Part shown: piece by piece, positions 1 to 24,459 of the stretch
Position numbering within the stretch: position 1 is the first letter of the stretch
Layout: each line of letters begins with the position of its first letter
Source of the DNA: Schizophyllum amplum
Lineage: Eukaryota; Basidiomycota; Agaricomycetes; Agaricales; Schizophyllaceae
Direction: 5' to 3'
Length of the DNA: 64,000 bases
Assembly: GCA_007026445.1 (NCBI GenBank)
Contig: VDMD01000026.1
Span: forward strand, 365,874 to 429,873
The notes under the pieces: model-generated
Databases searched by the model: none
Seen by the model: only the letters and a program-made list of their open reading frames with translations
What the model was told of the DNA's origin: nothing
Position numbers and translations under genes: made by a program

Positions 1-3000
1 TGATCACGGTCTCCTCGCACGCAGTGGCCTCGACCTCACCGACGAACAGCAAATGCCTGCAATAGATGATGTCAGCAAGCGGATCCCAATATGAATGATG
101 ATCAGACTCACTGGGCATCGTCGAGAGCGACCGTGGGGCGGGAGCAAGAGGCGGTTGAGGAGGCGGGAGGCGGCGGCGAGTAAGCGCGGAACGGCGGCGG
201 CGTTGAGAGGGCGAGGTCGAGGCGAGATCGGCGAGGTCAAGGCGAGGTCGGCGACGTCGGAGCGAGAGTGGCAAGAAAAAACCAACGACAGGCGGACAGG
301 TCAACGACGAGGGGGAGAAAGCAGGGGTGCTGCCTCTATCACCCCACGTCCCCCGACTCTTATACACCACCAGCGTCGTTAACCTTTCCAACCTCCTTGA
401 AACGCACGTCAGCCGGCTTCCGAATAGTCCCCGCGGATCGAGAGCCGAGATTGACTTACGACACGGTGGAAGATTCGGTGGCGCGCCCGCGTTCAGGAGG
501 TTGAACTTTTGAACATTCAACGCACACCCGGGTTCCTTGAGTCGCCGATTGCAGCGCACCGTCGTCGCCGTGCGTCCGACGAGTACGGGAGACCTTGTCG
601 TGCGTCCGCGGGGGAAGGCATGTTCGATTTGCAGGCCGGACTGGTGTCAAGCGCCCTCGCGCGTACGAGTCCTTTGGCGCTGTCCAACGCTCAGAAGGGC
701 ATCGAGACACTAGATGATTACGCACCTCAACTCGTATCTGACGCGTCCGCGGCTGAGAACCCCGCGAAGACCGACACAGGATAATCGACGTGGACGTTGA
801 AGACGACCACGTAACGCGCTGCCCCATTGGGAAACCCTTGTTGTTGAACAAGGCGGCGCCTTCGAACGCGCCTCTAGCACGTCGTCTCGCATTGTCCTCG
901 TGCTCCGCTCAGACGGGGACCTTGGTGACGCGTGTTCCCGCCATGCCCAGGCAGCATTAGCATTGCCTGCGCTCTGTAAGTCGCTGCGAATGAGCTGGGA
1001 GATAAAAACGAACATGGCGAGCATGCGAGGGCAGCGCAGAGTCTTTCATTTCTCGTCGGCGATAAGGGGAACCGAGTAACTTAGCGCTAGATGATCCGAG
1101 CAAGCGGCGAGCGCGGAAATGGACGACAGCAGGATGGAAGATTCAGCGAGTTCCAGACGGGGTGGGTATGTGCGATGGCGCGTGCGTGCGGCCGTCGGCG
1201 GTCGGCGTGAGATCGTCCGCAAACTTGAGCCTCCTCAATGAGTCATTGGCGTTTCAGGACAAGCGATCCGTGGAAGAATGGGAGGGCGGCAAGGTAGGGA
1301 ATGACGAGGAAGGGATGGCGTACTGCGCAGCGTACAGCGCGCGTGGGCGTCCAGGACTTCGTAGACAGTTTACCGTGTATGGAATAAACAGCACCTGGTA
1401 CAAACATCAGTCGCCCGAGGCGAGATGCCCATGCTACGAGCGGGCGGAAAACGACGCCACAAAATAAAGTCGACGCTCTTCGCGCCATAGCACTCGCTGG
1501 AAGTTGCGGAGACGGTGGCGACACAGCGAGGGCTACTGAATCATTCCTGTAGAGTCAGAATTCGATGAGGAATATTTTTCGCGGGGATGTCAACTTACGA
1601 CCATGAAGACGCCTAGTTCTACACTCAAACATCCTCGACCTCCCAGAACGATAAGGCGGAACGCTGATCTCGCCCATCGGCGATGCATGCCCGAGTTCTG
1701 AAGCGAGGTGATGTTGAATAACCTTTCATACGACCCATCGCGGTGCTTGGCGAGACCGCGGTGGCGCTCCGGACGGTAGAGACGCGCGTTTTGGCATGCG
1801 GCGTGAATGTTCTCGAACTTCCAGTGGATCCAAAGCAGTTATGGCGTCCCAGATCGACAGAGACTTCGCGAGTGTGATGGGGAACCGAACAGTCTTTTGT
1901 CCGAGGTGGCGGACGCGCTCGATGGGTGGGATGGACGTGGATGATGGGGACAAGTTGAACTTCGGCGCGTCGGACCGACTGCGTCGATCATTATGCACGT
2001 TGTTCCCGACCACCATTATCGCCCGGGGGACGATGTCTGCATGCTCTTCGTGCAGAGCGGCCACTGAATAACAATTCCCTGCCTGTCTGTGCTGATTACC
2101 TGCTCTAACGAGCTATGCCTGCTCTCAAATCGTCGAACGGGCGCCCCGGTGGCGCGCGCCTCCTCAAGCTCACCCGAACAGCGCTCTATGTCCGAAGGCC
2201 GTCCTGATCGACTACGTACAGCAACGCTATCTAGGTTGCTGTGCCGCCGGGCCCTGATCTGCGCGCCATGAACGTCATCTGGCTGAATTAGGTAGCCCTT
2301 GTTGAACCTGTTACCTGACGAGGTGGTGCGCACAGCGCTGCGAGCGAACTGCGCTTTTGCGGGGTCGCGTATGCAGCAGCGGCGCGTACGTTGCGACATC
2401 ACATTTCTTGTCGTGTAATTTCGATCGGGCTATATTCGAGGGTCGGGCAGGAACATGGGTGAGTTGAATCGTCAAAGTTCAACGTTGAACTTTACATGAA
2501 CAGAACGGGAGAGCGCAGCGTCCACCGTGACCCATGCTTCCGACGTCAACTTACTCGGTTCGCGAGATGAAGAGATGATGGCGAAAATGCACGCGGAACT
2601 TTCGGCGCAACGGCAGAGTCAGGAGGTTGGAAACGCAAGAGTACATGTTGAACTTACTCATATCTGTGAGCAGAGACGGGTGCGCTACTGCGCTGCTGTC
2701 GCTGATGGTGGCGCGGAATGATGCGGACGTAATGCGGGGATGTCTGTCAGACTTTGCGCGCGATTGAGGGAGGTACGGAGATGGAAGATTCGGGGTGACA
2801 GGTGAGCGGGAACGGCGGTGGGTGGCGCGGAGAGTCCGTGTCGAGATTGTCAACACCACGCCATTTGGATACGTTGGCTTCGACACACTGCGCTCTCACG
2901 TACCACAGTATAAAATATTTTGTCGGACTGGAGTTGAGACTGCCTTGCTGGGGCTGTAGAACGTGACGATGTCGGCACGCTCACTTCGACGGCCTTTGAA

Positions 3001-3640
3001 CTTTCGCATCGAGACATGGGCCGATCGGCGCACCCGCCCGCGCATCACTTCCGAATAGGTACGCATCTTCCGTACGTCAAACTTCCGGGGAACCGCTCAG
3101 GAGGTTGAGAAAGCGTGTGTAAGTATGCGCCGCAGAGGGTAAGAACTTTTGCGCGCGCTACTTGCGCCGCGCCAACGATGCAAAGTTCAGCGGATCCAGA
3201 GCTGCGGCCGCGCTCTAAATTTTAATGAAGTGTCGGATGATCAAAGGGAGCCGAATAATATTTTTTGGCGATGAGGGGAGCGCGCGATGAGCGTGAGGGA
3301 GGGGGAACGCTTCCCATCAAGTTGAACTTCGCTTGCCCGGACCGGCTGCCGATTCCATTGTTCTCCTTGCTGCCGACCGTCATGAGCGCTCGCTCGCGCG
3401 AGTATGACTATCGTTGCTCGTCGGTCTCAATCGATTCAGCGCTGAGTTCTCTGGCCTCTATGACTCCCATACTGCTGCACAAGGTATGGAAATAGCGACC
3501 AATATGAACATCTCCGCTGGATGGCGCGGCGGGCGCCTAATCCGCGGCCGAACAGCTGATAGCCTCAACACGCTTGTTGACGATCGGGTCAACGAGATCT
3601 GCTACGTACGTGGGTAAGTATTTTGCTCGGCTCCCTTTAG
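1..3640. other. ORF-poor, repeat-rich stretch, no gene recognised
   Basis: Short overlapping ORFs occur on both strands, but none shows a family motif or a consistent exon chain. The words GTTGAACTT and AAGTTCAAC recur (near 498, 2478, 2645, 1953 and 3321), and so do variants of GGAATATTTT followed by CG-rich sequence (near 1570 and 3255). This suggests several diverged copies of old repeats. Part of it (about 1431-1800) aligns by eye with 22550-22925. No terminal inverted repeats or transposase were found. Confidence 0.5.
1431..1800 (+). repeat. Diverged dispersed repeat, copy 1
   Basis: Matches 22550-22925 in order: CATGCTACGAG, then ACGACGCCACA, then CGCTCTTCGCGCCAT, then a CAACTTACGA block, AACGATAAGG, the CCCATCGGCGATGC region and ACGACCCATCGC. 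The copies differ by many substitutions and small gaps, so the duplication is old. No ORF is shared, so it is probably a relic of an unidentified mobile element. Confidence 0.55.
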
Positions 3641-3652
3641 CTCCGACGCGCG

Positions 3653-3659
3653 TATATAT
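3653..3659 (+). promoter_or_regulatory. TATA box of locus A
   Basis: TATATAT lies about 110 nt before the first canonical intron of locus A and is followed by a C/T-rich leader (CTCTCTCTTTTTC), the usual arrangement of fungal RNA polymerase II promoters. It is placed by context only. Confidence 0.45.
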
Positions 3660-4229
3660 GCAGCTCCGCAGCGAACTCTCTCTTTTTCAACCATCATCCC
3701 CCGCGCCCGCCGTCCGTATCCTCCTCCTCCCGTTGCCGCCGCCAAATCCCTCGTCGTGGATCTTAGGTGAGTAGAACCCAACATGTTCTCCCTCTCTGTT
3801 GACTAACCCATTCCCAGGCTGTGCTCGACGCGTCCTCGCCACGCACTCATCATCCCCACTGTCGTGTCGACGGGGACGTCGTCGACATCGACATCGTGTC
3901 ACCAACACATGGTCGGCGCGTAGCGCCCACATTGCGCGCTCTTTGTCTTCGCGACTCAAGGGGATTTGATTTTGTTTCTCTTGGTGCGTTATCCTTCGCA
4001 GTACTGGCTGTTCATGGACTGACACGGGGCACAGGACTTAGGCAGCGCTCCGACGCCTCAGGGTGGGCGCCGACGCACGTGTCACGGCGATGGTGCGCAG
4101 CGCCGTCGCATCATACAGTTTGTGTTGTACTTCGGTAAGTTTTTTTCTTCGCGGTGTCAAATTCTCCTTGACTTCTTGGTTAGCGGTCTCGGCGACGGTA
4201 CGGGTACCCGTGACGCCAGAAATGCGCGC

Positions 4230-4715
4230 TAGGTCGAGGGACGAGGAAGACGACGGCGCGGCCGGAGGCCGCGCGTGGGGGCAGCGCGCAGCGCCGCCAT
4301 TCTCTCCGGTGAGTTTCCCTTTGTTCGCGGCATGCTTTTGACTGATTCTTTTGACCGGGATCCGGGTGGAGGCCCCCCCGCGAAGGGGGGAGGTCGCGCC
4401 GTGGCCGACTAGGGCGAGGGGTAAGGGAGACGACGGCGCGGAGGGCCGCGCATGAGGGCGGTGCGTAGCGCCGCCATCGTCTACGGTGAGTGCCCCATTG
4501 TTCGTGGCATACATTCTTACTGACTTTCCGACTAGGATTGGGGTGGAGGGGGACGATGGCGCGGCCGAAGGCTGCGCATAGGGGCGGCGCGCAGCGCCGC
4601 CACTCGTTTTGGTGACCTTCCCTTCGTTCGCGGCGAGGCCTTCTCATCGAAGGCGCGGCCGGAGACCGCGCACGGGGGCGGCGCGCAGCGTCACCACTGC
4701 TCTTTCGTCTGTTTC
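4230..4715 (+). repeat. Tandem GC-rich hairpin repeats in locus A
   Basis: Four imperfect units start near 4245, 4425, 4545 and 4650. Each reads GGCGCGGCC-GGAGGCCGCGC (a near-perfect palindrome), then a short G-rich spacer, then GCGCGCAGCGCCGCC (a second palindrome). Three units end in GGTGA followed by a TTGTTCG(C/T)GGC-like tail. A more degenerate unit may sit near 4070-4110. The unit ends coincide with intron donors, so the repeats lie across exon-intron borders. Confidence 0.6.
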
Positions 4716-5031
4716 CGCAGTTTGGGATCGCTGGCTACTTTGCTGAATATCTGTGCAGTCATCGTCGGCAATTCCTAATCGCGCCCGTCGGCGTTGTGAC
4801 CATTATGAGAACATTGTTCGACCTCGCATCGGTAGGTCGTCGCATTCTCTTCCTACTTCACGCCGCTAACCCTCATGTAGACGCCCTCGTCGTCATGTGG
4901 ACTCCCACGACCTCTTCAACACCAATGCGCCGAGTCTTTCCGGGCAATGAAGATACAGAGTGCCTCCGGCGAGCAAGGTACGCTACTTATCATGCTGTAT
5001 GTGTCATATTGCTGACTGCCCACCCTCCTAG

Positions 5032-5798
5032 GCGATGAGTATATGTATCGACGTCCCGCGAGCGGCGTCATCGACAACGGATGACATCTGGCCACACTGG
5101 ACGCGCTAGACGTCGTTCAAGATGCACTCAACATTGTGTACCCACCCTTCCAAGACGGACTTACGCCCTCGAGACCTGCTCGTTTTCGCCAACCGCCCCT
5201 TGAGTCGCTTCTACCACCCTCTCAAGGCGAGCCCTACGGTCGCGAGCTCCGTAATCACTGTAGGTGATGAGTATATGTATCGCCGCCCGGCGAGCGAGGT
5301 GAGTAGCCCTTCGCATCCTTATAACATTGCTAACTATCTCAGTAGGTTACCCCAACATCCACGACGATGCATGCATACCCACGCCCTAGGCGATGAGTAT
5401 ATGTATCGCCGTGCCGCGAGCGACACCCTCGACGTTCTCAACCTCGTTGGGATGCGTCCGTCGCCGTCGTAGCAGCATTCTCAGCGTCGCCCAGACGTTC
5501 ACCGCGGCGCCGACGACGCCCTCTACGTCGTCACGACGTACCTGCCTTGTCCTCAAGGCTTGGGGCGACGGCGTAGGCGATGAGCATATGTACCGCCGTC
5601 CAGGGAGCAAGGTGCGTGCTATGTCTACCCACATACTATGCCACTAACCTCTCGCGCCTAGGCGATGAGTATATGGATCGCCGTCCGCCGAGCGACGTGA
5701 TCGAACGCGCCCGACGGCCTGGTGACACTTACAAGACGCACCCTCATGCTCGCCTGCGCGCCTAGGCAATGAGTATATGGATCGCCGTCGGGCGAGCA
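5032..5798 (+). repeat. Array of six 33-bp cores in locus A
   Basis: Cores of exactly 33 bp lie at 5032-5064, 5264-5296, 5390-5422, 5577-5609, 5662-5694 and 5766-5798. The consensus begins GCGATGAGTATATGTATCGC and ends CGTCC-GCGAGCG. Every copy is immediately preceded by TAG, which in most cases ends a canonical intron, so the core forms the start of an exon. Spacing varies (85-232 bp), so this is not a simple tandem repeat. Weaker copies occur near 4945-4977 and 5955-5990. One frame reads DEYMYRRPAS. Confidence 0.75.
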
Positions 5799-6330
5799 GG
5801 CCAACGGTGAGCACTTAGTATTTGGTTTAGCTTGTGCTGACTGTGCCTTTAGGCCTCCTCATCTGGAACTGAGGCCCTCGATCTCGGACCGGGAGACCCC
5901 CCGCTCCTTTATTTCGGACGCGCCACGCCTTCCGGCCGCGCCCGGCGCTGAGCGGCGAAGCAACGTATCGCCGTCCGACGAGCAGGCCTTACGTCGCGCG
6001 CGTCTATCTTGTGAGTACAACACTCCCCTCATCAGTATTCCGCTGACGTTCTCTTAGTAGATGGTGACCTTCCGATATCGTACATGGCGACTGTCCAGCA
6101 GCTGCGTCGACGCTGCTCGGGCGTGCTCACGATGCTAGGGGCGTACTCGGAACTTTGAGCGCGGCCGGCGCAGGACATGGGAGGGAGACTTGTTGTGCAC
6201 GGTGAGGGCGAGTCTGGGTGTTATTCGGGCCTTCTATATCAGTATTTTCGTTGTAGCCTTGTAGGTCGACACTGTAGATTAGAAAATACAGCGATTTGGA
6301 GGAAGTACAATGACTTGGAGATATAAATGA

Positions 6331-6733
6331 CTGGAAAGAACAATGACGTTGCACTCGTTGCGTACGTGACTTGGGGAGCTTGGGTCGGCGTTGAGAGGGC
6401 ACGGGGACTCGGGCATGAAAGGCACGAAAGCGATTGTATTCGGCTACCTACGACTACCTACGTGAGCTTACTGCGCCACCGGGTTCCGCTACCCCCACGA
6501 GTCCCAGCGAAAGCCCTCTCTCCTTCACAGCACGACTGCGAGCGGTGACCGTAGTGCGCGCGCGCTTTCGCGGCGTCGAGAGCTGCAGTACAAGGGTCAG
6601 TGCAAGCTGTGCAACCACACTTACTCGGCTGCCCTTCAAGCAAGCTCGCGCTATCCCTTGAGACGCCCGCCCCCGCACACCCTCGCAGTCCCGGACTCGT
6701 CGCGACCGAGTACGCGGTTCCTGGCGCGAGGAG
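6331..6733. other. Intergenic, nothing recognised
   Basis: This lies between the presumed 3' end of locus A and the next TATA box. It contains CTACCTACGACTACCTACG (near 6443) and no supported ORF. Confidence 0.4.
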
Positions 6734-6740
6734 TATATAA
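6734..6740 (+). promoter_or_regulatory. TATA box of short locus C
   Basis: TATATAA is followed by a pyrimidine-rich stretch (CCCATCCCCTCTCGCCC) typical of fungal transcription starts. The only sequence downstream before the converging TMEM184-like gene is a 24-bp tandem repeat and a hairpin, so any transcript would be short and probably non-coding. Confidence 0.4.
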
Positions 6741-6812
6741 GCCCATCCCCTCTCGCCCTTCCCTCCACCATCCCTGCCCCCTCTCGCCTTGCCGCTGGTC
6801 GTCCGCGTCGCC

Positions 6813-6884
6813 GCCAGTCGTGCAGTCGCACTCGCCGCCAGTCGTGCAGTCGCACTCGCCGCCAGTCGTGCAGTCGCACTCGCC
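6813..6884 (+). repeat. 24-bp tandem repeat, three perfect copies
   Basis: The unit at 6813-6836 repeats exactly at 6837-6860 and 6861-6884. It contains AGTCGTGCAGTCGCACTCG. The perfect copies suggest recent expansion. It is transcribed if the TATA box at 6734 is active. Confidence 0.9.
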
Positions 6885-7014
6885 CCCTCGTCGTGCTGCC
6901 TGCCGCCACGCCGCACGCTGCAGTTATGCTGGGGGAGGCCATGCCGGTCGGAGTTCCGATGGAGGGGTCAGTACCTATACTCGCCTCGTACCTACTCGTA
7001 GTCGTCGTGGCACG

Positions 7015-7057
7015 CCCCCGGACATGGGCCCCTGTAGGGGGAACCCATGTCCGGGGG
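7015..7057. terminator. Strong hairpin just past the TMEM184-like stop codon
   Basis: The arms CCCCCGGACATGGG (7015-7028) and CCCATGTCCGGGGG (7044-7057) are perfect 14-bp complements. An inner CCCC/GGGG pairing leaves a very short loop. It sits about 50 nt downstream of the minus-strand stop at 7108 and ends short locus C on the plus strand. A role in 3'-end formation for converging transcripts is inference; it could also be a repeat scar. Confidence 0.5.
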
Positions 7058-7107
7058 CCCACAAAAGGAGGGATGGGCGCTAGACACCTATCAGAATTCA
7101 TGCCGCT

Positions 7108-8736
7108 TCACCGCGCTACAACATCACGTGAGGTGTGAGCCAAACGAACAGCCAAGTCACGCACGGGTAGTCGTGGTCGCCGGTCGAACAGCTGCTCATC
7201 GGCCTCGTCGTCGGACTGTTGTCGCAGGTCCGGCGCTGCGTGCACGACGTCAGCGGCCTCGGACGCAAGCAACGGTGCGTGCGATTCTTCGTCGTCCATC
7301 GCACGATGCAGTCCCCTAGTGATGGTGTTCTCCTCGCGTGTAGAGGCTGCGCGCGGCAGCCAGTACTTGCGCTTGCCACCCTTGCTATAGCGCAGCCCTG
7401 CACGTATGCGTCTTTCACGGCCCAGCCCCTGATGTATGAAGCCCTCGGACGGCTCAAACTCGCGGTAGTCCATCCCCTCCCCACGCATGGTAGTCTTGAA
7501 GTCCTCGACAACGTCCTTGAGTCCGAACGCATCGCGGAACGCGTGGTAGAACGTCATGCGCGCGACGAAAGACTTGGTCTCGTCGACGAAGTCCGTAAAC
7601 GAGAACGCGTACCAGTGGGCGATCGCAAAGAATGGCATCTCGATGCAGATAATCGTGTCCGAGAGGCCGAGGGATATGCGCTCCGCGTCCGTGTACGGCC
7701 CGAGACGCGTGATGGCGTCAGCGGCGACGAGGATGGAGATGAGGAGCGACTGCCAAAACGAGAAGAAGAGGATGCCCTTGACGCAGAGGAACTTGGGCAC
7801 CGGGCGGAACGGCTTGAGGTCGTCGTTGACGCAGAGCCAGAATATAGCGAGGCAGTAGAGGGCGAGGCAGATGCTGACGTTGTAGACGACGCTGACGTAG
7901 AGGTAGCCGGAGTTGGCGCGCAGGTCGCCGTCGTTGTACTTGTTGCAGGCTTTCAGAATCAGTGTGGCGGTGGCGAGGATGGGCTTGACGTAGACGTATT
8001 CTGGGAACGGGTGAGCGGGTGGAGAGAGGTCAGTGGCTAGACGCACGCATGATGCCTCGCTTGAGGAAGAGGAAGGTGTAGGGGTCGCTGACGTCGATCT
8101 CTCTTGTAAAGATGTTTGCGGGGAAGGGGGGCGCCTTGGGTGGTCGTCCGTGATTCATGATCAACAGAGAACGCTCTCCGCCGAGGTATACGAGCAGCAG
8201 CACGAAGAAGCAGTAGATGACAAAGGCCTGCAAAAGGTTAGAGCATGCACCGTAATCATGGCAAGGGGCGCACCTCGTATACATCTCGTATAGCGTCGAT
8301 GAAGAAGGCGGCTTCGAGGGAGAACAATGGATGCAATTGCGTAGATGGGTATCATGACCATAATTCGGACCACCATGCTGGAGACAGTCAGTACAAACGC
8401 ATGTCTAGGTGGTACAGGCTCTACTCACCGCTGCAGCGCCGGTTTCCTATAGTTCTTCAGATGCAAATATATCGAAAAGACCGAGACGACGACCGCGATG
8501 ACCGTAGAGACGCCAGACAAGATGAGAACACCAGCCGGAAGGTGGGAGCCAGAGCCTTCTCGGTCCCCGAGCTTCAACCCCATGTCTTGAGAAGGAAGAG
8601 TACCGCTGACCACAGGGACACGACCGTTAAGAACAAGGAACAATGGCCGCAGCCGGTGACGCGCTTTGTTTGACCAAATACGGTAATTGGGAAACTCTGA
8701 CACGTGACTTTGCCGACTTTCATTCCGAACGGTCAT
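7108..8736 (-). CDS. TMEM184 / organic solute transporter subunit alpha-like membrane protein (possible frameshift)
   Basis: This is a DUF300/Ost-alpha family polytopic membrane protein. Fungal members are poorly characterised and the family is linked to transport or vacuolar function. Exons (minus): 8429-8736, 8274-8377, 8047-8227 and 7108-8000, with GT-AG introns of 46-51 nt. Family blocks seen are VPAGVLILSG-like helix 1, MVVRIMVMIPIYAIAS, AFVIYCFFVLLLVYLGGERS, DPYTFLFLKRGIMQYVYVKP (after splicing) and SGYLYVSVVYNVSICLALY. The acidic C-terminal tail has DDEESHAPLL. The start is uncertain: Met at 8736, or at 8583 just before the first membrane segment. In exon 2 the frame changes near 8325, between PIYAIAS and FSLEAAFFIDAIRDVYE, where one base stands in place of the expected six or three. 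As given, the protein would be broken there. Confidence 0.85.
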
Positions 8737-9184
8737 CTGCCAGTGCCAATGCAGCAGCGCATAATGCTCTGCGTAGAATCTTCGTGCAAGCCGTCCTCTG
8801 TGACTATTGTATCTACCTCAAGCGCTTTCCCCCAAATTTGTTGCCGTCGACGTCGTGTGTACCCCGCCCGTCGGGGCAGAGTGACGCTTATGCTCTCGCC
8901 TCCGTTCGATATTGAAAGGGCCCGGGGACAGTCCACGTAGTGAGCCTTGCTGAGATCGATGATTTCTACTAACTGCTTGCCCCGCACACGTGGTCTCTGA
9001 TAATCCCCTAGCTGTATGGGCGAGCTACTTTAATCGGGTATGCCACCTTTCAAATTTCAAGCTTCAGGGTCGATCTTTCATGGAAGTTCAGACGCAAGTC
9101 ATGAATATAAGCTGATCTTTCGTACAGGATGCTGCATAATGCCCTAGAATCTGATTCTGCAGCCTCGGGTTCAGCTCGTTCTCG
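8737..9184. other. Upstream region of the TMEM184-like gene
   Basis: No ORF with recognisable features. It probably contains the minus-strand promoter; no clear TATA or CCAAT box could be assigned. Confidence 0.4.
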
Positions 9185-9930
9185 AGTTACTAGCTGCTGG
9201 TTCTAGAAGGCGACAACAAAACCGGCACTCCGCCCGCTCCTTGCTTAGCGCTCAGTACAAAGGGAAATGTAAGGTATCAGACTGCCTGCGGTATGAGCGC
9301 TTAACGGGCGATACACTCACCGGTGCGCTGAGGCCAGGTCTTTTCACTGCTGCTGTCATTGTCCGACGATGGCGCTTCCCGTACTCGGATACACCACGGC
9401 TTTACCAGTCAATCTGGATTGGCATGGCGATTGCATTTGTCCGTACGTGATCACACATCTTTTGAGTATCCTCATTGTGGATCGCAGGCTCTTACTATCG
9501 CGCTGTTCAACCCTTCGGCCTGGCCCACTTCTATGCAAGTAATTGTTGCCTAAGCTAAGCATCACTTATCGCAGAGCACTTCACAACAACACTTGTCACA
9601 TCCATCCACGCGGTGACCGCCTGCGACCATCACGTTGTTCGCAATCTCTGTAGTCCTCCTCGCTCTCGTATTGACCCAGCTATGCTGCAGCAGAGCCCGG
9701 TGAGGCAGCAGTAGGACAAGACCCGTCCCACAAGTAAATATAACTCTGAGTTGGCCTCCGCGGAGGTCGTCGTCGATCCCGGCGCGACCATGCAAAGCAT
9801 TTTATATGTGAGTAGAGGTTGTTTTGTCGCCACACATACTGCACTGTATGAGTTCAATTCGTTGTGCGCTGACTTATACGCAGACACGCTCGTGCGCGGC
9901 GAAATCAACGCCCTCCTGGAGATGTTGACA
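9185..9930 (+). pseudogene. Decayed PTR2 peptide-transporter copy
   Basis: A diverged duplicate of the middle of the PTR2-type gene at 12379-15453. In order it shows the LPEGGN exon relic (9188-9230), ATGGCGCTTCC to CAGTCAATCTGGATTGGCATGG (9369-9428), the GTGACCGCCT block (9608-9700) with CAGCAGAGCCCGGTG, and GTCGATCCCGGCGCGACCATG up to the donor GTGAGTAG (9770-9813). Compared with the intact gene, the 9608-9700 exon has lost internal sequence and runs into TAG after the QQSPVR block. Other exons are missing or out of frame. No protein is expected. Confidence 0.85.
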
Positions 9931-11083
9931 TGAAACAGGTTGGTCTCAAAGCTTACGCAGTCTACTCATTCCCATTCACAGTTGACTCGCGTATTGACCG
10001 ACAAACAGTAGCCCTCGAGGACGAGGACCCGGAGGACCGGCGCGGGCTGCAGAGGGGAGACCGCTTTGGCTTCGTCCGTGGACGATGGACACCGTTTGCG
10101 ATGGCCTCGTAGACCATGGCAGTTCCGGCCGCGGGCCCTAGTTATCCTCGCCATGGCCTCTCCACCCCAAGTCACTTCCCTTCTGCCTCCCTTCCCTCCT
10201 GCATTCCTTCATTGCACCGCCTCCCGCACCCATTCTTCTTGCGTGCCGCTGGATTCGCCTCGCTTTCGCATCTCCCGTCTGTTCCCTGACGCGTCGACGA
10301 AGCCGCGGCGGTCCTTCTGTAGCCCGCCTCCACTTGATTCGATTCGTACGCCGAGGACAACCCCTGCTTGTCAAGCGCAATCTTAAGGCGCGTCCAGTGA
10401 ATGAGGAAGCAGTGTCATGGGATTGAACATCGGACTTGGTACGTTACTGCATCACGCGTTCAGGAAACCGGTTCTCAGCGCTCACAAGGGCACGGTATCC
10501 TCGGTCTTTGTTTTTTTTTTAAACTTTATTCAGGTGCACATTGTATCTCTCAGCCATCGCTCCTCTGAGAGACCACGAAGCGTCACTGCTTCGCACTTCC
10601 TCAATCTGGTGCGCGTCCTGAGCGAGCGATTCGAGTATCGCCACAGGCGCAGCCGAGATGAGTCACGACCCTACGCCAGTCAGCATGGGGAGGCCCGGGA
10701 GGGAAGGCAGCGGCGGGACACCGCACGGCGCACAGTGCGGCGGGACGTCGCGAGATAAGTAGACACGGAGTAGACTGGTCCCCCTCGGCGTAGGCGAGCC
10801 TGTCCAGGGTGCGTTTGTATCGATACTGGGAGCTGCTGCTGCGAGCGAAGCGCGAGATAAGGAATCCTTTAAAGGAAGCAGAACGGGGCTCTCGGCGTCA
10901 TCGCCCTTATCCTGCCCCCACCGCCGTTTTCAGTGCCAGTGACCCTCTCCAGAAGCGTACGTTGCGATGGGCGCGTTCTCCGATGCAGATAGACCTGACT
11001 GACGCGCCACTTTGCAGAGCGTCAATCGCATCGATCCATCATCATCCCGCATAGCAAACCCTCCTCCATACACATCAGCAACA
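9931..11083. other. Intergenic, no supported gene
   Basis: Short ORFs only. 9990-10112 encodes an acidic/Arg-rich frame (EDEDPEDRRGLQRGDRFG) that could be a stray exon but has no partners. A T-run (10508-10517) precedes AAACTTTATT. The 3' part is the promoter and 5' leader of the cupin gene. Confidence 0.4.
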
Positions 11084-11458
11084 ATGTCGACCGACGCCAA
11101 GCCCATCGCCTTCTCCGTCATGAAGAACGTCCCCAAGGAGTTCAAGCCGGCGCTCCTGGCGCCGCCCAACGCCTACCTCGAGGACATGTTCTCGTCGGAC
11201 CAGGTCAACCCCGAAAAGCCGATGTCGTCGGGCTTGTTCCGGCTGGAGAAGGGGAAGGAGCTGGTGTACACGTACACGTACGACGAGATGAAGATCATCC
11301 TTGAGGGCGTCTGGACGATCTCGGACGAGACGGGTCAGAGCGTCACGGCGGAGCCGGGGGACCACTTCTTCTTCCCCAAGGGCACGACGATCACCTTCAA
11401 GACCGACGACTACGGGTTGGCGTTCTACGTCGGGCAGAGGAAGAGGGGAGCCGCATAG
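11084..11458 (+). CDS. Small cupin-fold protein (EutQ-like / DUF861 type)
   Basis: A single-exon protein of 124 residues. The start ATG follows CAGCAACA, a good fungal start context. The C-terminal two thirds is a single cupin barrel: SSGLFRLEKGKELVYTYTYD, ILEGVWTISDE, then the second cupin block EPGDHFFFPKGTTITF and a final strand LAFYVGQR. This order matches the EutQ-like cupin_3/DUF861 family. The usual metal-binding His/Glu set is only partly visible, so a catalytic role is uncertain. Such proteins are often small cytosolic isomerase- or binding-type proteins of unknown substrate. It stands alone between the PTR2 pseudogene and the intact PTR2 gene, with no sign of an operon-like link. 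Confidence 0.85.
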   Translation: MSTDAKPIAFSVMKNVPKEFKPALLAPPNAYLEDMFSSDQVNPEKPMSSGLFRLEKGKELVYTYTYDEMKIILEGVWTISDETGQSVTAEPGDHFFFPKGTTITFKTDDYGLAFYVGQRKRGAA

Positions 11459-12378
11459 GTAGACCCAGGGATTGCTTGGAGGATGATATACCGGGAGGTG
11501 GGGTCGGGTAGCAGTGCTTGACGCACGCGGTCGACGCGGCTGTCAGTTACCCAGATGTATGAAAGCCGAATGTTGTATCGATAATCACTGTAACCTCGGA
11601 GGTGCGCTGCATGCGAAAGTTGCAGTCGAAGTTGGCTGCAGCTCACGCGTTGGAGTTGCGCCAATTTCAAAGGCGCATCGATCCAGCCGATCGCTTAGTC
11701 GGACCCCGGGGATTGCCGGGATCACGCCCACACATGACGTGACGACCTTGACTCTAAGTCCGGTTCTCATCCTTGCTATCATGTCTCCTCACACGGTGAA
11801 CGTTGAACGCTCCAAGCATCGAGCACCCTCTCAAAACCTGCCACGAATCTCGGTAGTACGGGCTAATCTAGCCCTTGGTCAACGACTTTCTAGCTCTGCG
11901 AATGACTTACTCGATACCAAACCACGACTCTCAAGCAACCCAGAGCACGACTTAGCACATATCTGTTGGTGAGTGGCTTTGGATAAGTACATCAACTCTT
12001 TGGCCAATGGCTGGCGCCTGCTATACGCCGTAACGAGCGGAGTGATGCGTGCACGGCGCTCTCCTATGTATAAAGTACGAGCTCCGTCTAGTGAGTGGTC
12101 TAAGTGCGCTCAATACAAAGTCTATCTCTTATCCATCATCCTCGGCCGAGGTGGCGCCTTATGAAGCTCCCTCGCAAATGAATTTCGCTATATTGAGGTG
12201 GAAGACGCGGCGGCGCCTCAGACAAGTCATCCGGTTATGATCAGGGTGTTCTTACTTAGCTCCCCACTTACGTGTGCGTTGCGGCTTCCATGGTAGAGCT
12301 GACTGTACTTACAAGTTGCTTACAAGCTTCACCGTGCCAGAATATCGACCGGGGCCCTTGACGCTGACCGCGATCGCG
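11459..12378. other. Intergenic between the cupin and PTR2 genes
   Basis: No ORF with family features. 12040-12240 holds short Arg/Ser-rich frames on both strands without a plausible exon chain. The last part is presumably the PTR2 promoter. Confidence 0.4.
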
Positions 12379-15860: not shown

Positions 15861-16049
15861 GGTATAAGTGCTCTCAACATGTCCCTGGCATTGTCTCAAG
15901 CATGTCATCGGTGTCTTATCTAGTATACCTATGTCAAAACCGAATTATCTGTAAGCAGTAGGTACGATTCTGGGACTTATCATTGAATGGGTCCAAACAG
16001 TAACAAACAGCAACAATGGATTTTACCAAATCGAGACAGTCATTATCCT

Positions 16050-17540
16050 TGCTTTTACCATCATCCCTTGCACCGGCGCCCGCTGCCGGCAGTCCCGGCG
16101 AGCGCGCGGCATTTGAAACTTGCTGCTCGGCAGGCTTGGGATCAATAATCTAAGGTAAGTCAGGGACTGGTCGCTTGTTGTCGGGCTTGGCGTTGACCAA
16201 GAGTATCTCCTCGTTGTTCTCATCCAGCTCGGGCGTGTAGACGTTCCCTGGAAGTTCCCTTCCCTCCCTTATCTCCTGAAGCAGGCGCTCGCCCTGCGAC
16301 AGGGCGCCATTCCTTTCCCACCATGTTCAAGCGGTCGCAGCATGCCGACTCCGACGACGAACCGGACAACATCGACCCCGAACTTCGCCTGCGCACCGTC
16401 CGCACAGCGCACAGCGCTATCGCAGAGTCCATACGTTCAGAGGTCAAGGCTGAACGCCGCAAGTCGCGCCGCGCCAAGGGTCGCTTCTTCAGGAAGAGCA
16501 CCGAGAAGAAGCCGGCGCAGCAGCCCACACCAGACGCGCCAGCAGACGCCGCGGCCTCCTCCGTGCCAGGCCTCCGTAGAAACATCTATGTCAACTGTCC
16601 GCTTCCCGCCAGCGAGGTTGATCAGCACGGGGAGCCCTTGGCGCGATATGTCAGGAACAAAGTTCGGACGACCAGTGCGTGTACGACCTGCGCATGCGTC
16701 GCGCGAGAGCTGACACCCTCGTAGAATACACGCTCCTCACATATTTGCCCAAGAATATTATCTTCGAGCAATTTAGGCGGTGCGTGCTTCACAAGCCTAT
16801 CATCGCGCTCCCCCTCATCGCGTTGCAGCATCGCCAACTTGTTCTTCCTCACCCTTGTCGTCCTCCAGAGTACGCCCGTTCCGCCCCCTTCCCTTTCTCT
16901 AACTCATCCACGCCAGACATCTCCGTCTTCGGCGCCCCGTCCGGCAGCATATCCATGCTTCCCCTCGTCTTCATCCTCACCGTGACCGCCATCAAGGACG
17001 GCGTCGAAGACTATCGCCGTGCGCAGCTCGACGAGGAGGTGAACACATCGGCATCAACGAAACTCGGCGGCTCCTTCAAGAACGTCAATCAGCCCACCGA
17101 TTCTCGCTCCTGGTATGAGAAACTGCTCAATCTCAATCCCCCGGGGAAGGTCACCCGTGGCGTCCGCAAGCTGCGCGAACGCGAGGCCAGCGAGATCAAG
17201 CGCACTATCGCGATGCCCCGCCGCTCCTCCACCATGGAATCCGAGCGCAACAACGACTCCATGGAGCTTGGCTACAACGGAGCCGGGCGAAAGCTCGACG
17301 ACATTCAGTCCGTGGACTCCCACTCTTACCCGCCCACCAGCCTGGACATGTCCAAGACGTCCATGTCCTCGTCTACGACCTCTCTTATGCCGGGACAGCA
17401 ATTCGGAGGTGGTCCGGGGACACTGGCGGATTACGACTCTGCCATGCTCACTGCCGGCGTCGTCGATTACTCGAAGCGGATCACGGGGGCGAGCCAGTGG
17501 GAGCGGACGCTGTGGAAGAAGCTGGAGGTCGGCGACATCG
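16050..17540 (+). repeat. Direct duplicate of the flippase promoter and 5' exons (copy 1)
   Basis: The block from TGCTTTTACC (16050) to GGCGACATCG (17540) matches 26369-27831 almost base for base, including introns and about 270 bp of upstream sequence. Homology stops sharply on both sides. Differences include small indels in the promoter, the KPAQQPTPDA versus KPAETPKDD region, the first intron, and an 18-bp plus 3-bp insertion near 27700 in the other copy. Confidence 0.95.
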
Positions 17541-17560
17541 GGCGGCGGCGGCGGTTGTAG
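16323..17560 (+). pseudogene. Truncated P4-ATPase (flippase) 5' duplicate
   Basis: It carries the N-terminal quarter of the flippase encoded at 26607-32204: [16 protein letters not shown], the first membrane pair ([31 protein letters not shown]), the second membrane segment and the cytosolic loop up to [14 protein letters not shown]. There it meets unrelated GGC-repeat sequence and stops after five residues (TAG ending at 17560). Intron positions are kept (first donor at 16675). It lacks the phosphorylation DKTGT site, the nucleotide-binding domain and all later helices, so it cannot be an active flippase. Its frame is intact throughout, and at the G-run 17416-17419 it has GGGG where the full-length copy has GGG. 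Expression of a short membrane fragment is possible. Confidence 0.9.
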
Positions 17561-17739
17561 CGACACGCCGCGCGCGCCAGGCGCGGGGGACGAGCGGCGC
17601 GACGAACGAGGTGAGTGCCGCGTCAGTCTGCGCGGCTGGCGATTGTATACTGTAGTTTACGTTGTATTATATAGCACAATATAAGTTGTTGTTGATCTTC
17701 TTCGTGCCCGACGTGCTTGATGAGGCGAGGTAGATGACG

Positions 17740-18960
17740 ATGTGGGGGAGGAGGGAGCGGCGAGAGAAGGGAGGAGCGGGGGGGAGGGAGGAGCGGCGAG
17801 GGGGGAGGGAGGAGCGGCGAGGGGGGAGGGTGACGGGAGGAGAGCGAAGGGAGAAGGGAGAGGGGGGAGGAGCGATAAGGGAGGGGAAGGAGCGAGAAAG
17901 GGAGGGCGAAGGAAATGGAACGAGCGGGTGAGTAAGTCAGATAGCTGTGTATGAGCTAAGCCAGACAGCTGTGTATGAGCATGGCCTCGGGGATGGCGTG
18001 AAATACGACGGGGAGTGAAAGAAGGGAGAGGGGGAGTGAAAGGAGGGAGAGGGGGGAGGGGGGAGGAGGAAGCGAGGGGGGAGGGGGAGGGGGGAGTGAG
18101 AGGGGGAGGGGGGAGGAGGGTTGGGAAGGGACTGGAACGGGGAGAAGTAGTGAGTAGATAGATGAAAAACCTGGTGTGAGTCAGAGAGGTGGAGGAGCGA
18201 GGGGGGAGCGAGGGGGGAGGGGGAGGAGGGACGGGAACTTGGGAGCGAAGGAGCGAGTATACGTGGATGAGGGAATAAATAGATGAGAAAGACGGCGAGT
18301 TGTGGTGAGTGCGGGTACGAACCAGTTGAGGGCGGGGTGAGATACGAGGGCGAGTGAAGGGGGGAGAGGGAGGAGGGAGGGGAAGGGAGGAGCGAAGGAG
18401 CGAGTATACGTAGATGAGGGAATAAGTAGATAAGAAACACGGCGAGTGCGTATACGGACGGGTTGGGGACGACGTGAGATACGAGGGCGAGTGAAGGGGG
18501 GAGAGGGAGACGGAGGAGAAGGGAGCGAAGGAGGGGGTGGAGTGATATGTCGAGTCTGAGGGCGATTACGGATGAGGCAAGGAATGGGGTAAGAAGCGGA
18601 GGGTGTGAGTGAAGGTGGAGGAGGGAGCGAGAGGGGGAGCGAGAGGGGGGAGCGAGAGGGGAAGGGACTCGAGATGAAGTGAATAAATGAAATTGTGAGG
18701 GGAAATGGTGTTGAGGTGCGCGACTTGAGGGTAAAATTGGAGGGAGGGGAGAGGGGAGCGACGGGGGGAAGGAGGGTGAGGCAGCGCGAGAGGGGGGGGG
18801 CACGGGAAAACGGTCGAGTACATAAGGCGAACGTAAGTGCGAGCAAGGGTGATCCGATACCGCGAGAGATGCGGAGCGCGAGGCTGAAGGGGGGAGGGAG
18901 GGGGAAGGAAGAGGAGGAGGGGAGGGAGGGCACCCGGCCTCGACTCACTTCGAAGGAGTG
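17740..18960. repeat. 1.2-kb homopurine (G/A) tract with internal 150-bp duplications
   Basis: The plus strand is almost wholly G and A: runs of GGGGGAGG and GGGAGGGAGG separated by less biased patches. The patch GCGAGTATACGT(G/A)GATGAGGG is duplicated (from about 18250 and 18410), each followed by GTGAGATACGAGGGCGAGTG. The long Ser/Pro/Leu ORFs on the minus strand (17937-19057) are by-products of this composition. Many G-runs could form quadruplexes or triplexes. It begins 180 bp after the truncated flippase copy. Confidence 0.9.
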
Positions 18961-21660
18961 ATGGAACTTGCGGTCTTGACAAGACAGTGAAGCACCGTGT
19001 CGACGAGAAAGGGGTGAGGTAGACAACGGTAAGTAAACCGGACTCGAAGGGTATCATTTGCGGTCACTACGGCACGCACGACTTTGGCGAGCGTGACGGC
19101 ACAACTTGAAGTCAGGCTCAAGCCATGAACTCGGGCGACATATTTCGAAGGCAAACGAAATTTATTCATTACTTATCTACGAAGTACAAAACTACTCCTA
19201 CTGCGTAGCTACATGTATCGAGGCCCACACCCCTGACCGCACGGCCGGCGTGAGATAGATCGTGGGTGCGGGAGCGCGAGCGGACGGCGGGCTCGTCCTT
19301 GAACAGCTTCTTGATGTGTGCGCGAGTCGCCGATGAGGTGCTCGCAACGCCACGGGAGGTGTCAGCAGACGCGGGGTGAGGGGTCTGAGACGACTGTCAG
19401 TATTTTTCGAAGGGGCGGGGCGGAACAGCACCCCGAGGCAGCGACGAGGGCCCAATCAAGCCGAGGGTGGGGTGCCAATGTCCTGAAAACTCGCTGATAT
19501 GAGAAAGTAAAATGGAGAGACGACTGGCAGGCAAGTCATGTAGGACAAACGTGATCTAGGTGGCTATCAAAGAGGTTAAGCGGGTGAAAAAAGGACTAGG
19601 GCGAAGCGGCGAAAGTATATGTAAGATACGAATGATTCTGGAAAAGCGCGGAAATTAGGTGCGAAGGAAAAGGGACCCGGGGTATATAGGCCTTTGCAGG
19701 GCGGTACTGCAACACGCAATAGATGATATAATACTCACATTGGGAGCCTAGACCATTCGCCTTGGCCACGCCGCCTCCGACGACGTCGATTGCGACCTGC
19801 GCGTGCGAGACAGATCGCGTAGCGCACTCACTCTGCGGTCACTATCCGTATCGCGGCACCAGGTAGAACAAAGACCCGGCGACGCGGACGGCGGCAACAA
19901 GTCTACAAGCTGCGTCAGCTGAAGTAAGATAATATACACAGCTAACTCACATCAAACAAAGTGCGCGGCGGCGCTGCGCGCCGCCCGCCGCCCGCCGCGT
20001 CCCAGACCCACGCTCCCTCACGTCGAGTCAGTCACGGCCGTCCCCGAGTCCTCCCGCGCGAATATTCACGCATTTGATCTCGATTTGCACCAATTTTGAC
20101 GTCCAGACTCTCGTCAAAACCGCCCCCGCTTGGACCGGCAGATGGGGCTACAGCAGCGCGAAGAGGACCGTCAAGGGTCCACAGGGGAGGTTGCTATGGC
20201 GACGTAGCCGACGGGGTCGGTGGCGAGGGCAGGCGAGAGGTTGTGGGCACCTGTTTGCGATCGGGCGAGCTAGAACAGAGTCAGACAGTACGTGGCACGT
20301 TCTACGGAGGCTACTTACCACGAGGGACATGAGAGTCTCATCCGCCCAGCCTAGTCGCGGCAAAGAATTTCGCAGACGCGGGCGCGCGTGAGTTGGACTT
20401 GTCAGTCACGGCAGAAGCACGTGGTGCGATGTTGAACTTGCGGGACCGCGCGGGTCACTGCTACGGCACGGCGCTGTCAGGTGGAGCGCACGAGTGGACA
20501 GCAAACATGTACTCACACAAGAGACGTGACGTCGGAGCTCGCCGTCAGGTTGTAGATACGAGCCTGGCGAACGTGAGGGGGATTCGTTGTTGGTGGTAGT
20601 TTGGGAACCCCATCCTGCAATCGGGTTAGGCGTCGTTCGGCGTGGAACGGCTGGGACACGCACCGTGATGAGCGCATGCCAAAGTCGCAGACTCGGCGGG
20701 AACCTGTGAAAACAATGAGCATCATGCCACCGCGCTGCTCGTCGTCGACGGACGCACCTGGACCTCGTCGAGACGATCCCCATTTGCGTCGGCGGCTGGG
20801 GGAAACGCCCTCAGTCCCGCCCAGACGCCTTACGAGATGGTCGCGCCTCTCGTTGTTGTCATGACGACAGCGACGACCGTGTTCCGCCAACGCCGCCGAC
20901 GCTGCGTAGAGCGGGAGGTACGTCGTTGTCGGGCGTCGGTGCATGGCGTACACGGCGTCGAGCGACATCGTCGCGTGTAGCGTGAGGGTGCTCGAAGCGC
21001 GGAGACACGGGCGGACGTGGTGGTACGAGACAAGCTGGGTGCGGTCAGTTTTGTATTGAATGATCTCAATAGAAACGCTTACCAACACGGCCCGAGCGAG
21101 CGATAAACCCGCGTAGCGAGGCCTTGACGAATGGAAAGTCAGCAGGATATCAAGTGGATGAGATCACAATGAGATACTTACCGATGGACAATAGACGAAC
21201 TGCGTGTTGGGAGTGACAGGAGAGCGTTGCTGGGTGTTTGCAAAGTTGATGTGCAGGCGAATCTAGAAAGATAACAAACCCAGAGGCAAATGATCAGCAA
21301 AGTGAGAGATCAGGAGAAAAGCAACAAGCGTACCAACGCGTGCAAGTCGTAGGTGCTCGTCGATATCCGCAGACGGCCAAAGCGAGACACGGGTAGACGA
21401 CTACATGGGAGGAAATAAGACGCTGGGAAGATGCTGGAAACCAACGAAAGTCGCAGGTCTTTATACACGGCGGGACGGCTACGGTCCCGCTCGCTCGCGT
21501 CAGCTCGCTACGCAACCTATTCAGATATCGCATCATATCAGCGCCGGGTAGCAGGCGGAGATGACTCACTGAGTTGGAGGACGAGATACGGGCCCTGGAA
21601 AGCGGAAGATTCGGGGACAGCGCAACACGCAGAACCGGCGTTGCCCTAGGCAGCACGTCA
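18961..21660 (-). other. Region D: ORF-poor, with canonical intron-like segments on the minus strand
   Basis: Clear intron-like segments on the minus strand are 21123-21181 (GTAAGT to AAG), 21035-21082 (GTAAGC to CAG), 20474-20516 (GTGAGT to CAG) and 20270-20318 (GTAAGT, CTGAC, TAG). Joining the exons leaves two frames open for only about 90 residues (one contains VTPNTQFVYCPS), with no known domain. 19200-19960 shows only short frames and a TATATAGG at 19682. It may be a decayed gene or a spliced non-coding unit like locus A. Nothing more definite is supported. Confidence 0.35.
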
Positions 21661-22549
21661 GCTCCGTCGCAACAGAATTCTATAGAAACTTCCCGCCTCG
21701 GGCATGGGCGGCCTTACTCGGAGCAGCCGACGGAAAGACGGAAGTTTTGTCTGGCCTGTGGGCGACGCGCTACAGCACGTACAAGTCGTTCACTGTCGTC
21801 CTCGTCGTTCACCGCGTCGAGCAGAAGACGCCAGAGCTGTAGAGCAACGTGCCTTGAGTGACGAGTAACGCGTGACAAAGTCGCGAGCCCGCGAGTTGAA
21901 GGCGCCAGGATGTTCGTGGTCATTGTTGAACTTGCGAGATCAAGGGTAACTCCTTTTGGCAGTCGTTGAAGTTCACGAAAGGCGGCGCGCCGCTGACGCG
22001 CATCGCCCGCCTCGTTGACCGCGTCCCTCCCTGGGACTCGTTCACAAAATATTTCCTCGTCATAGACGGCACCTACTCCCGGGTTTTCGGGGTCAATGGG
22101 CGCAAACGGCGCCCTGTGAGTGAGTAGGTATAGCGCACAGCGGTGGCGAGCGCAGCGTAGCCCTCGTCGTCTCGCATCATGTTTCCATCAATCTGATGGC
22201 ATATGTCAGCGCCCCGAGACCCGGTTGCTGAGCGCGGAAACGCACCAGATTCCGATGGAAGATGCGGAAGGGTGCAATGCCCGCGTAGAGGAATGGCGCT
22301 ACCGCGAGCGCGTGCGGCGTTCGGCGGCCAATTCGTCACCATACAAACGTTCGGACGGACCTCGGCAGACGAAGTCGTGATTGCGGTGTCGTCGGCGGGA
22401 AGAGTCATTGCGCTGTGAAGTACGAAGGGAGGAGGAGAGGGTGGTGCATACCATGTCGTGGAAGGCGCGCAGGCGCGGTTTGACACCTGGGGCGTCGAGG
22501 GATAGACTATTATACTTGAATGAGTCATCGAGAACGTCAGCACCAGGTC
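21661..22549. other. Accessory DNA, no gene recognised
   Basis: It holds the repeat word GTTGAACTT (near 21926) and GTTGAAGTTC (near 21965). ORFs are short and low-complexity on both strands. Confidence 0.4.
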
Positions 22550-22925
22550 GAACGAACATGCTACGAGCTCACCAAAAGCGACGCCACATAACAAAATCGC
22601 TCTTCTTCGCGCTATTGCACAAGTGCGGGGGCGAAGATCGCCAATCTGACAGCGGGTATCGGTTTCTGACCACTAAACGAACACGTTTTGAGACAGGAAT
22701 ATTTTAGCTTGGGGTGACAACTTACGAACCTGAAGAGGTTGAGTTCTGCATACAGAACTCCCCGACCTTCTGGAACGATAAGGAAGGACGTTGATCCCGC
22801 TCATCGGTGCTTGCTTGTCGTGTTCTGATGGTGTAGGACGTTGAGCTCGACCTTGTACGACCCATCGCTGGTAACGAATTGGAGGTGGGAGCCCTCCGAA
22901 AAGTAGACGCGCCAGGTGCGCGCCA
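22550..22925 (+). repeat. Diverged dispersed repeat, copy 2
   Basis: Partner of 1431-1800 (ACATGCTACGAG, GCGACGCCACATAA, CTTCGCGCTATTGCAC, CAACTTACGA, GAACGATAAGG, CTCATCGGTGCTTGC, ACGACCCATCGC in the same order). It ends where the shared sequence fades near GACGCGCCAGG. Confidence 0.55.
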
Positions 22926-23536
22926 CCCGCGACTCATTTGTGTATTGCGACGGATCCGCTAGCGATATGGGTGCAGTTCTTTCGCGATGGGTGTTTCACG
23001 GTGCAGCAAGGCCAATGCAGGTTGCATCGTGGCGGGAGACAAGGACGATGGACGGGAAGCGAAGACGGCGGCGCGGGAAGACAGAGATCGGCGGTCGCGG
23101 CCCGACCTCCGCGCCTCGCGCTCTCATTTCAATTTTCGTCAAGTTCGTTTTGACCGTCATGGTTCCTCACGCCCTGCTCGCGCATTGCGACGCCGCCGCG
23201 TCCGCTTCACCGGACGCTCGTTCAGTAGACCAGCTGAACAGCGCGTCAGCCACGGCGCTTACATCGCGTCGCGCGCCCTGCCAACAGCCCAGCCTCGCCC
23301 GCAGTGCCGTCGGCGACTCTGTTCAGAGTACTCATCGCACCGGGAATTCACGGTGTCGCCGACGGCCTTGTGAGCGCGACTGTGGTGTTGGGAAGGTGGG
23401 AAACGTGGTCCGCTCAGGACGCGTCCCCGTCGCTCGGGTTCAACGGCATTCGGACGGCACCCTAAAGCGGCAACGCATATAAATTTCCGCTCAGGGTATG
23501 CCGTATGATCGGTCGCCCAGGGTTTGTATCGCGGCT
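22926..23536. other. Upstream region of locus B, nothing recognised
   Basis: GC-rich sequence with short Arg/Ala-rich frames in all phases and no exon chain. It probably includes the promoter of locus B. Confidence 0.35.
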
Positions 23537-24031
23537 TATATACTCGCTCTGACGTTTCCACGTAGTTCCTGTTTCCCCCGCCGCCGCTCCCCCGCGACGA
23601 ACAGCACGGCGGCACGCTATACAACGTGAGTCTTTCGAGCCAACTGTCTTGTAGCTTGGCTGACTCGATGCCCAGCTCGTTCTCCATCGCACTCAAGCTC
23701 CCATACCTGCGTGGCGTCAAAAGTTCTCAGCGCCTTCAAGGCTCGCCGAAGCCCGCCTGCGCGACATGCGACGCTTCAAGCGGACGACTTTTGGTTCTCT
23801 AACGTCAACATCCCCGCTGAATTCGACGCTGAACTTGAAGTCCTTCGGAAACCACTGGACCCAAGGGCGAGGGCGCTATCTTCATGTGAGCCTTTACGAC
23901 ACGCGTGTAGAGCCTGCCGCTGACACCCTTGCAGCTCGCCCCGCTCCCAACGCCGTCCGGCCACGCCGTGGACCCCGCCGCGCGCCGTCGCCATGGCAAC
24001 AGCCCGCCCACGCCCGTCCCCACGTCCTATT

Positions 24032-24459
24032 GACCCCCGTTTACCGGTCCAAGCGGACGGGATTTCGGCGACGTTTCCAGGCCCAAAACGAATGCAAAAC
24101 GGATGCAAACCACGAGATATCCGCGCGGGAATTTTCGAGGACGTTTTCGACGGTTTTGGGGAGGTGGGGAGGGAGTTTTGAGCGCGGCGGGCGGCGCGAA
24201 GCGCCGCCGCCGACATGTATAGGTGCGTCGTGTGGCTTGCTTTCCGATTTGACGCTTACTGACCCCCGCAGAAGCTCGACGACCCCCGTTTACCGGTCCA
24301 AGCGGGCGGGATTTCGGCGAGGATTCCTGGCCCAAAACGAATGCAAAATGGACGCAAATCGTCAAATATCCGCGCGGGAGGTCTCGAGGACGTTTTCGAC
24401 GATTCTAGGGAGGCGGGGAGGGAGTTTCCAGCGCGGCGGGCGGCGCGAAGCGCCGCCGC
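24032..24459 (+). repeat. Two 179-bp direct repeats ending in a GC hairpin
   Basis: Copies at 24032-24210 and 24281-24459 have identical length and align without gaps by eye, from GACCCCCGTTTACCGGTCCA to a terminal hairpin GGCGGCGC-GAA-GCGCCGCC. They differ by scattered substitutions. The offset is 249 bp, a multiple of three, so a 242-residue frame (23766-24494) runs through both. The spacer contains a canonical intron (24223-24271). Confidence 0.9.

Follow-up and report, generated by a model that had tools for sequence, protein, structure and literature searches.

The window analyzed here is a 64,000-nt stretch at the end of contig C179, and the genome searched with it was a 49.65-Mb assembly of 309 contigs. 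Locus A, a predicted spliced non-coding transcript compared in 32 copies, occupies positions 3653 to 6330 on the plus strand and comprises a TATA box, an initiator, and nine introns. The TATA box (TATATAT) lies at 3653 to 3659, and its TATATA columns are 0.84 to 0.89 conserved across 19 clusters of copies. Introns were scanned with a GTRNGY donor, a CTRAY branch point, a YAG acceptor, and a length of 42 to 65 nt (relaxed scan) or with a GTRNGT donor instead (strict scan). Intron 1 (3767 to 3817, 51 nt) is identified by the strict-donor scan and by the conservation of its signals across copies. Introns 2 (3984 to 4034, 51 nt), 3 (4486 to 4535, 50 nt), 4 (4832 to 4880, 49 nt), 6 (5299 to 5342, 44 nt), 7 (5612 to 5661, 50 nt), and 9 (6011 to 6057, 47 nt) are found by both scans, and introns 5 (4978 to 5031, 54 nt) and 8 (5807 to 5852, 46 nt) by the relaxed scan only; all are on the plus strand. 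The relaxed scan thus gives nine introns of 44 to 54 nt on the plus strand and none on the minus strand (0.23 in shuffles), and the strict scan gives seven and none, with a mean of 0.17 and a maximum of 3 in 500 dinucleotide shuffles of the plus strand. The TATA box and the chain of canonical introns described in the initial annotation are both confirmed.

The exons are rich in repeats. Exon-intron units of locus A are partly tandem duplicates of each other, with three to four units at 4229 to 4698 on the plus strand (repeat families D2 and D3), where the acceptor of one duplicate near 4310 seems, as read by eye, to have been lost. An exon-edge motif of about 35 nt, TAGGCGATGAGTATATGTATCGCCGTCCGGCGAGC, occurs in six copies between 5027 and 5809 on the plus strand, starting near 5029, 5261, 5387, 5574, 5659, and 5763. 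It is present in all 32 copies of locus A (178 matches), and its core, with up to two mismatches, occurs genome-wide at 118 sites on one strand and 85 on the other, the reversed control giving none. The motif was rejected as an RNA hairpin, as several stem and loop positions vary one-sidedly, and is kept as a sequence motif. Its coding reading (GDEYMYRRPAS) was rejected as well, on account of a weak, hand-averaged third-position bias and of frames that disagree. Scans of the window gave no Rfam match at gathering score and no tRNA.

The spliced long non-coding RNA (lncRNA) locus proposed in the initial annotation does not stand alone. It belongs to a high-copy repeat of about 9 to 10 kb, element E, which ends at window position 7132 and contains three or more promoter-led units, locus A being one of them. 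The window holds the right part of E (1 to 7132, plus strand) as the third unit of the C179 array, the left end preceding the window. Strand-aware pairing of match coordinates gave a minimum of 57 copies, spread over 21 contigs, a count that comes from searches scoring at most 40 candidates each and excludes two C223 copies at 1940 to 1957 kb. The flanks of locus A (300 to 2310 and 6408 to 7133) have copies in arrays with a period of 10 to 12 kb. These arrays run head to tail, each unit consisting of E and part of one host gene, with the host segment copy measuring 1.2 to 2.4 kb. Core identity is 70 to 78% between contigs and mostly 80 to 98% within arrays.

The right terminus of E (7040 to 7132, plus strand) is 92 to 100% identical in the 40 copies scored. 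It is sharp, because every match to the 94-nt right-end query in these 40 copies stops at base 92 to 94; the conserved terminus is CACGTGAG at 11 junctions and CACGTGCG at a twelfth. Its last five bases, GTGAG (7128 to 7132), resemble a splice donor, through which a transcript from the right end could be joined to the neighboring host sequence. A hairpin-like stretch, CCCCCGGACATGGG ... CCCATGTCCGGGGG, at 7014 to 7058, about 75 nt ahead of the terminus, also matches other copies inverted. Toward their left ends, E units have pyrimidine-rich stretches. An outward TATA, read by eye, lies near the right end at 6734 to 6740 on the plus strand, and all 10 E units examined have a TATA 324 to 375 nt ahead of their right terminus. 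A further outward TATA (358 to 364, minus strand) belongs to locus B, the left transcript, which runs left out of the window and has its first intron at 57 to 111 on the minus strand, both features being read by eye. The locus B chain points opposite to locus A, with 39 introns on the minus strand and 1 on the plus strand in 11 units (3.5 expected).

The core-left block (300 to 3600, no strand assigned) is 57 to 77% identical between clusters in 300-nt windows and carries a repeated GTTGAACTT/AAGTTCAAC motif, which six counted copies contain two to six times each, with 0.01 to 0.06 expected. Coding constraint was measured as codon rhythm, the share of substitution spacings that are in frame, for which chance gives 1/3. 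The E core blocks showed no rhythm (0.30 to 0.32), nor did the core-left windows (0.31 to 0.33 each, 92 between-cluster pairs pooled), and in all 15 copies examined of the least gapped core-left block, every one of the six frames contains at least three stops. A hidden gene in this block was rejected because of the missing codon rhythm and the stops in every frame. A scan for RNA folds in an 11-copy alignment of the block gave a z score below −3 in 3 of 88 strand-windows, none of the 3 with favorable covariation. Between 1200 and 1950, the block is nearly indel-free between clusters though about 25 to 34% of bases differ, and constant stretches are interspersed with hypervariable ones whose length is fixed; no frame and no covarying fold was seen there.

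Locus A was compared in a sample of 32 copies in 19 clusters, taken from the at least 57 copies of E. These 32 copies together contain 211 introns on the plus strand and 1 on the minus strand, with 12.4 expected from shuffles. Among the 19 cluster representatives, the donor, branch point, and acceptor columns of intron 1 have a mean majority frequency of 0.92, versus 0.77 for the 195 other columns; in the same alignment, exon 1 stands at 0.77 and the remainder of intron 1 at 0.73. None of 20,000 random 14-column sets matched the conservation of the intron 1 splice signals, and the most conserved hexamers of the alignment fall in the initiator, CAACCATC. Some copies are decaying, because the strict test for intron 1 is passed by 13 of the 19 clusters, the failure in C78 being due to an alignment-split acceptor only.

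A second subfamily, element X, follows the same plan as E and spans 17541 to 26368 on the plus strand. It has at least 40 genome copies, mostly in arrays of their own, which brings the count over the two subfamilies to about 100. A 312-nt block of X is about 63% identical to E, and the 35-nt motif recurs in X at 24700 to 24734. The counterpart of locus A in X consists of a TATA at 23537 and five introns (23537 to 24998, plus strand, 0.1 expected), and a chain of seven introns lies at 19903 to 22245 on the minus strand (0.33 expected). Near the left end of X, positions 17744 to 18900 form a long purine-rich stretch with a strong GC skew of about 0.41 to 0.44. A minus-strand block at 22076 to 22672 has relatives with 59 to 68% amino acid identity over about 150 amino acids and no frameshift among the 16 best listed, of which 3 are without stops. 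Relatives of this frame with an open length of 164 amino acids occur in several arrays.

The initial annotation held that the joined exons of locus A encode nothing coherent, and the other copies bear this out. Of the 31 aligned copies, 23 have an ATG behind the initiator; the window copy has lost it. In a search for the longest spliced frame from the initiator ATG, the start was present in 24 of 32 copies; half of these 24 frames stop within about 50 codons, and frames of about 190 to 445 amino acids could be forced in 10, these not agreeing between clusters. Pairs of locus A copies within arrays that differ by more than 60 substitutions show no codon rhythm (0.29 to 0.39 in frame), while a segment of a TMEM184-like gene inside the same arrays, used as the positive control, gave 0.72 and 0.95. 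A P4-ATPase pair served as a further control and gave 0.336 in frame over 61 substitutions, in an alignment that includes introns and untranslated regions and in which one copy is truncated; with this share there is no rhythm, and the duplicate therefore shows no constraint. A short conserved peptide may follow the initiator ATG.

These observations bear on whether locus A and the core could descend from a gene family or mobile element that once encoded protein, the sampled copies being pseudogenes and the introns leftover. The frequent ATG after the initiator, the peptide reading of the exon motif, and the long spliced frames that can be forced in some copies would all fit such an origin, as would the minus-strand block of X. 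The X frame may be a remnant or an active coding exon, and X may code, given the amino acid identity and the stop-free members among the relatives of that block. Neutral decay, however, should erase splice and promoter signals along with codon structure, whereas in locus A the signals are kept and the codon structure is not. Moreover, the ATG frames differ between clusters and many end early, stops are common, and the 10 window frames scanned included no transposase-like frame and gave no Pfam match. We consider a coding remnant unlikely. The comparison of the 32 copies instead supports locus A as a predicted spliced transcription unit that does not code for protein: of the properties that mark an lncRNA gene, the absence of a protein frame under constraint was found in the copies tested (locus A pairs and core pairs), and the maintenance of promoter and splice signals was found across copies. 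The earlier proposal of a spliced lncRNA with repeat-derived exons is thereby retained as a prediction for a unit with repeat-rich exons.

In the six E arrays that were read (C179, C46, C106, C112, C223a, and C223b), different host-like frames separate the units. In the window, E is followed by the captured 5' segment of the TMEM184-like gene (7133 to 8684, minus strand), identified by a Pfam match (PF03619). Open frames of 638 amino acids for this protein occur at C179:85737 and C101:357056; its best named relative, from Schizophyllum commune, is 83% identical over 83% of the query, and the other listed relatives covering at least 80% of the query reach at most 69% identity, which makes a Schizophyllum-like agaric the probable host. 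A simple insertion of E into the TMEM184-like gene was set aside, given the 638-amino-acid frames at two other places and the duplication of the segment. The left flank of the C179 array (L009:1839-3895) repeats, in inverted orientation, C179:87232-88612, a stretch 252 kb away that adjoins a full-length TMEM184-like frame; the array site is therefore rearranged. Other captured segments were identified by Pfam as a phospholipase D (PF00614) and a DUF3632 protein, and one is DNA-ligase-like as read by eye, its tested fragment having no Pfam match. The captured frames of C46 and C106 had no Pfam match and no coding rhythm; rhythm was found in the captured segments of C112 (0.53 to 0.65) and C179 (0.67 to 0.69). 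Phospholipase D segments also occur at a third place, C223:220667, 10 to 11 kb further on; this copy may represent either a further unit or the parent gene itself.

Comparison of the array edge with inner units gave captured-segment lengths of 1222, 1398, 1407, 1447, and 1551 nt in five arrays, the 1222 nt belonging to C46, where the edge is uncertain as similarity resumes beyond it; the segment around X measures 1491 nt. By our own reading of the start codons of the four genes in which one could be assigned, the segment edge lies 101 nt (TMEM184), 140 nt (phospholipase D), and 158 nt (ligase-like) upstream of the ATG, and for the P4-ATPase segment 238 nt in the right copy and 273 nt in the left copy. 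Next to the right terminus, about 290 to 840 nt of extra sequence is present in unit 1 of C179 and in inner units of C112 and C46, and such junction differences within one array are unexplained by plain tandem duplication. Since promoters at the ends of E could read the partial gene copies, the arrays might be silencing or regulatory cassettes whose antisense or small RNAs would be directed at the parent gene. The longest gene-like frame beside the right terminus is indeed antisense to the plus strand of E in C179, C112, C223a, C46, and C223b, but the P4-ATPase segment at X, and apparently also the unnamed frame in C106, lie in sense, and we regard a silencing cassette as very unlikely.

Element X is flanked by two copies of a 5' segment of a P4-ATPase gene, taken as the target duplication of X. 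The left copy is at 16050 to 17540 and the right copy at 26369 to 27831, continuing into the P4-ATPase gene, both on the plus strand. The right copy starts, at 26369 to 26390, with TGCTTTTACCATCATCCC, close to the locus A initiator of other copies, CTTTTTCAACCATCATGCCC; owing to this closeness, the end of X may coincide exactly with a transcription start. Contig C101 matches window positions 7205 to 12000 at 97% and 26369 to 31200 at 98%. There, the P4-ATPase segment is single copy: C101:365880-367397 and 365890-370763 match window positions 16040 to 17540 and 26369 to 31200 as one run. The coordinates of the flanking matches leave no room for X on C101, because the first match and the segment lie as far apart there (361838 to 365880) as positions 12000 and 16040 do in the window. 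C101 is probably the other haplotype, although it may be a paralogous segment rather than an allele. This site also bears on an ordinary segmental duplication, in which a long regulatory region would have been copied with its neighboring genes and no mobile element would be involved. Tandem structure alone can come from unequal exchange, but E meets unrelated genes at a terminus that hardly varies and the collinear C101 has the P4-ATPase site without X, which makes such a duplication highly improbable.

No shared left terminus of E and no short target duplication was seen in the ends compared. A comparison of 600 with 600 nt at the ends of one E and of X, with left ends as placed in this analysis, gave as terminal inverted repeats a single 10-mer for E (E-value of 0.27) and none for X, and it detected no long terminal direct repeats inside the element; the direct repeats flanking X are host gene. 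Helitrons begin with 5' TC, end with 3' CTRR preceded by a hairpin, and insert without target duplication. E could be a non-autonomous Helitron or other rolling-circle element with captured gene fragments and tandem arrays: the gene fragments, the head-to-tail arrangement, and the strong conservation of one end all recall such elements, and the Helitrons reported from the mushroom Pleurotus (PMC4289320) are likewise repeats able to hold foreign gene pieces and have a well-defined end. The terminus, CACGTGAG/CACGTGCG, is not CTRR, however, and the other direction has no TC start; the left end of E is not conserved, X shows a target duplication of about 1.5 kb at the one site where C101 has a single copy, and no Rep/helicase was found among the scanned window frames. 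A Helitron origin is accordingly judged distinctly unlikely.

At the level of sequence, E has a conserved right terminus, the divergent chains A and B behind TATA boxes, and no constrained frame. On balance, we favor as probable the joint reading that locus A is a spliced non-coding unit within an unclassified mobile or amplifying repeat, E, which is protein-free in the copies tested. The divergent spliced non-coding units of this repeat are predicted, and we infer their expression and function, and the mobility of E, from these comparisons. E or X would enter the 5' region of host genes and duplicate about 1.2 to 1.6 kb of the gene, either through a very long target duplication or through a circle of E and a gene segment that integrates by homologous recombination. 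The flanking direct repeats would then allow arrays to grow and shrink by unequal exchange, with protein machinery supplied in trans. Selection would keep the promoter and splice signals; because these are kept without a protein, the element probably benefits from the RNAs or from being transcribed or spliced, for instance by escaping silencing or by using an RNA in its own copying. More tentatively, as a possibility that we would not call probable, E may be a protein-free mobile element of a new class whose functional parts are its terminus, its promoters, and two divergent spliced non-coding RNAs and which targets the 5' regions of host genes, copies about 1.4 kb of them, and multiplies as arrays.

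The usual classification of fungal repeats rests on the proteins that they encode. If the joint reading is true, a high-copy repeat that keeps splice signals and promoters but no protein implies that a spliced RNA, or splicing, matters to the element, and the E arrays would offer a naturally occurring, many times internally replicated system in which to study selection on a non-coding spliced transcript. The gene-start duplications of about 1.2 to 1.6 kb suggest an integration route outside the standard transposon classes tested, and such a route would remodel the promoters and copy number of ordinary genes.

Non-LTR retrotransposons have one conserved and one variable end and a target duplication of variable length. 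E and X resemble them in these respects but differ in having no reverse transcriptase among the scanned frames, introns kept in the genomic copies, and duplications of 1.2 to 1.6 kb. Long intergenic non-coding RNAs from Ganoderma lucidum, for which the abstract reports 402 candidates with a mean length of 609 bp from RNA-seq (PMC4059649), are like locus A predicted non-coding units in an agaricomycete; unlike locus A, no high-copy multi-intron unit inside a repeat is mentioned in that abstract. Among the matches listed in a search of titles and abstract beginnings in the open-licence literature, no element like E appeared, which speaks weakly for its novelty. We know of no natural nuclear element in mushrooms that integrates as circular DNA in the way considered here. 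Although the analogy leaves the capture of gene segments unexplained, the integration of circular DNA by homologous recombination shares with E both the direct repeats of host sequence at its flanks and the multimeric arrays.
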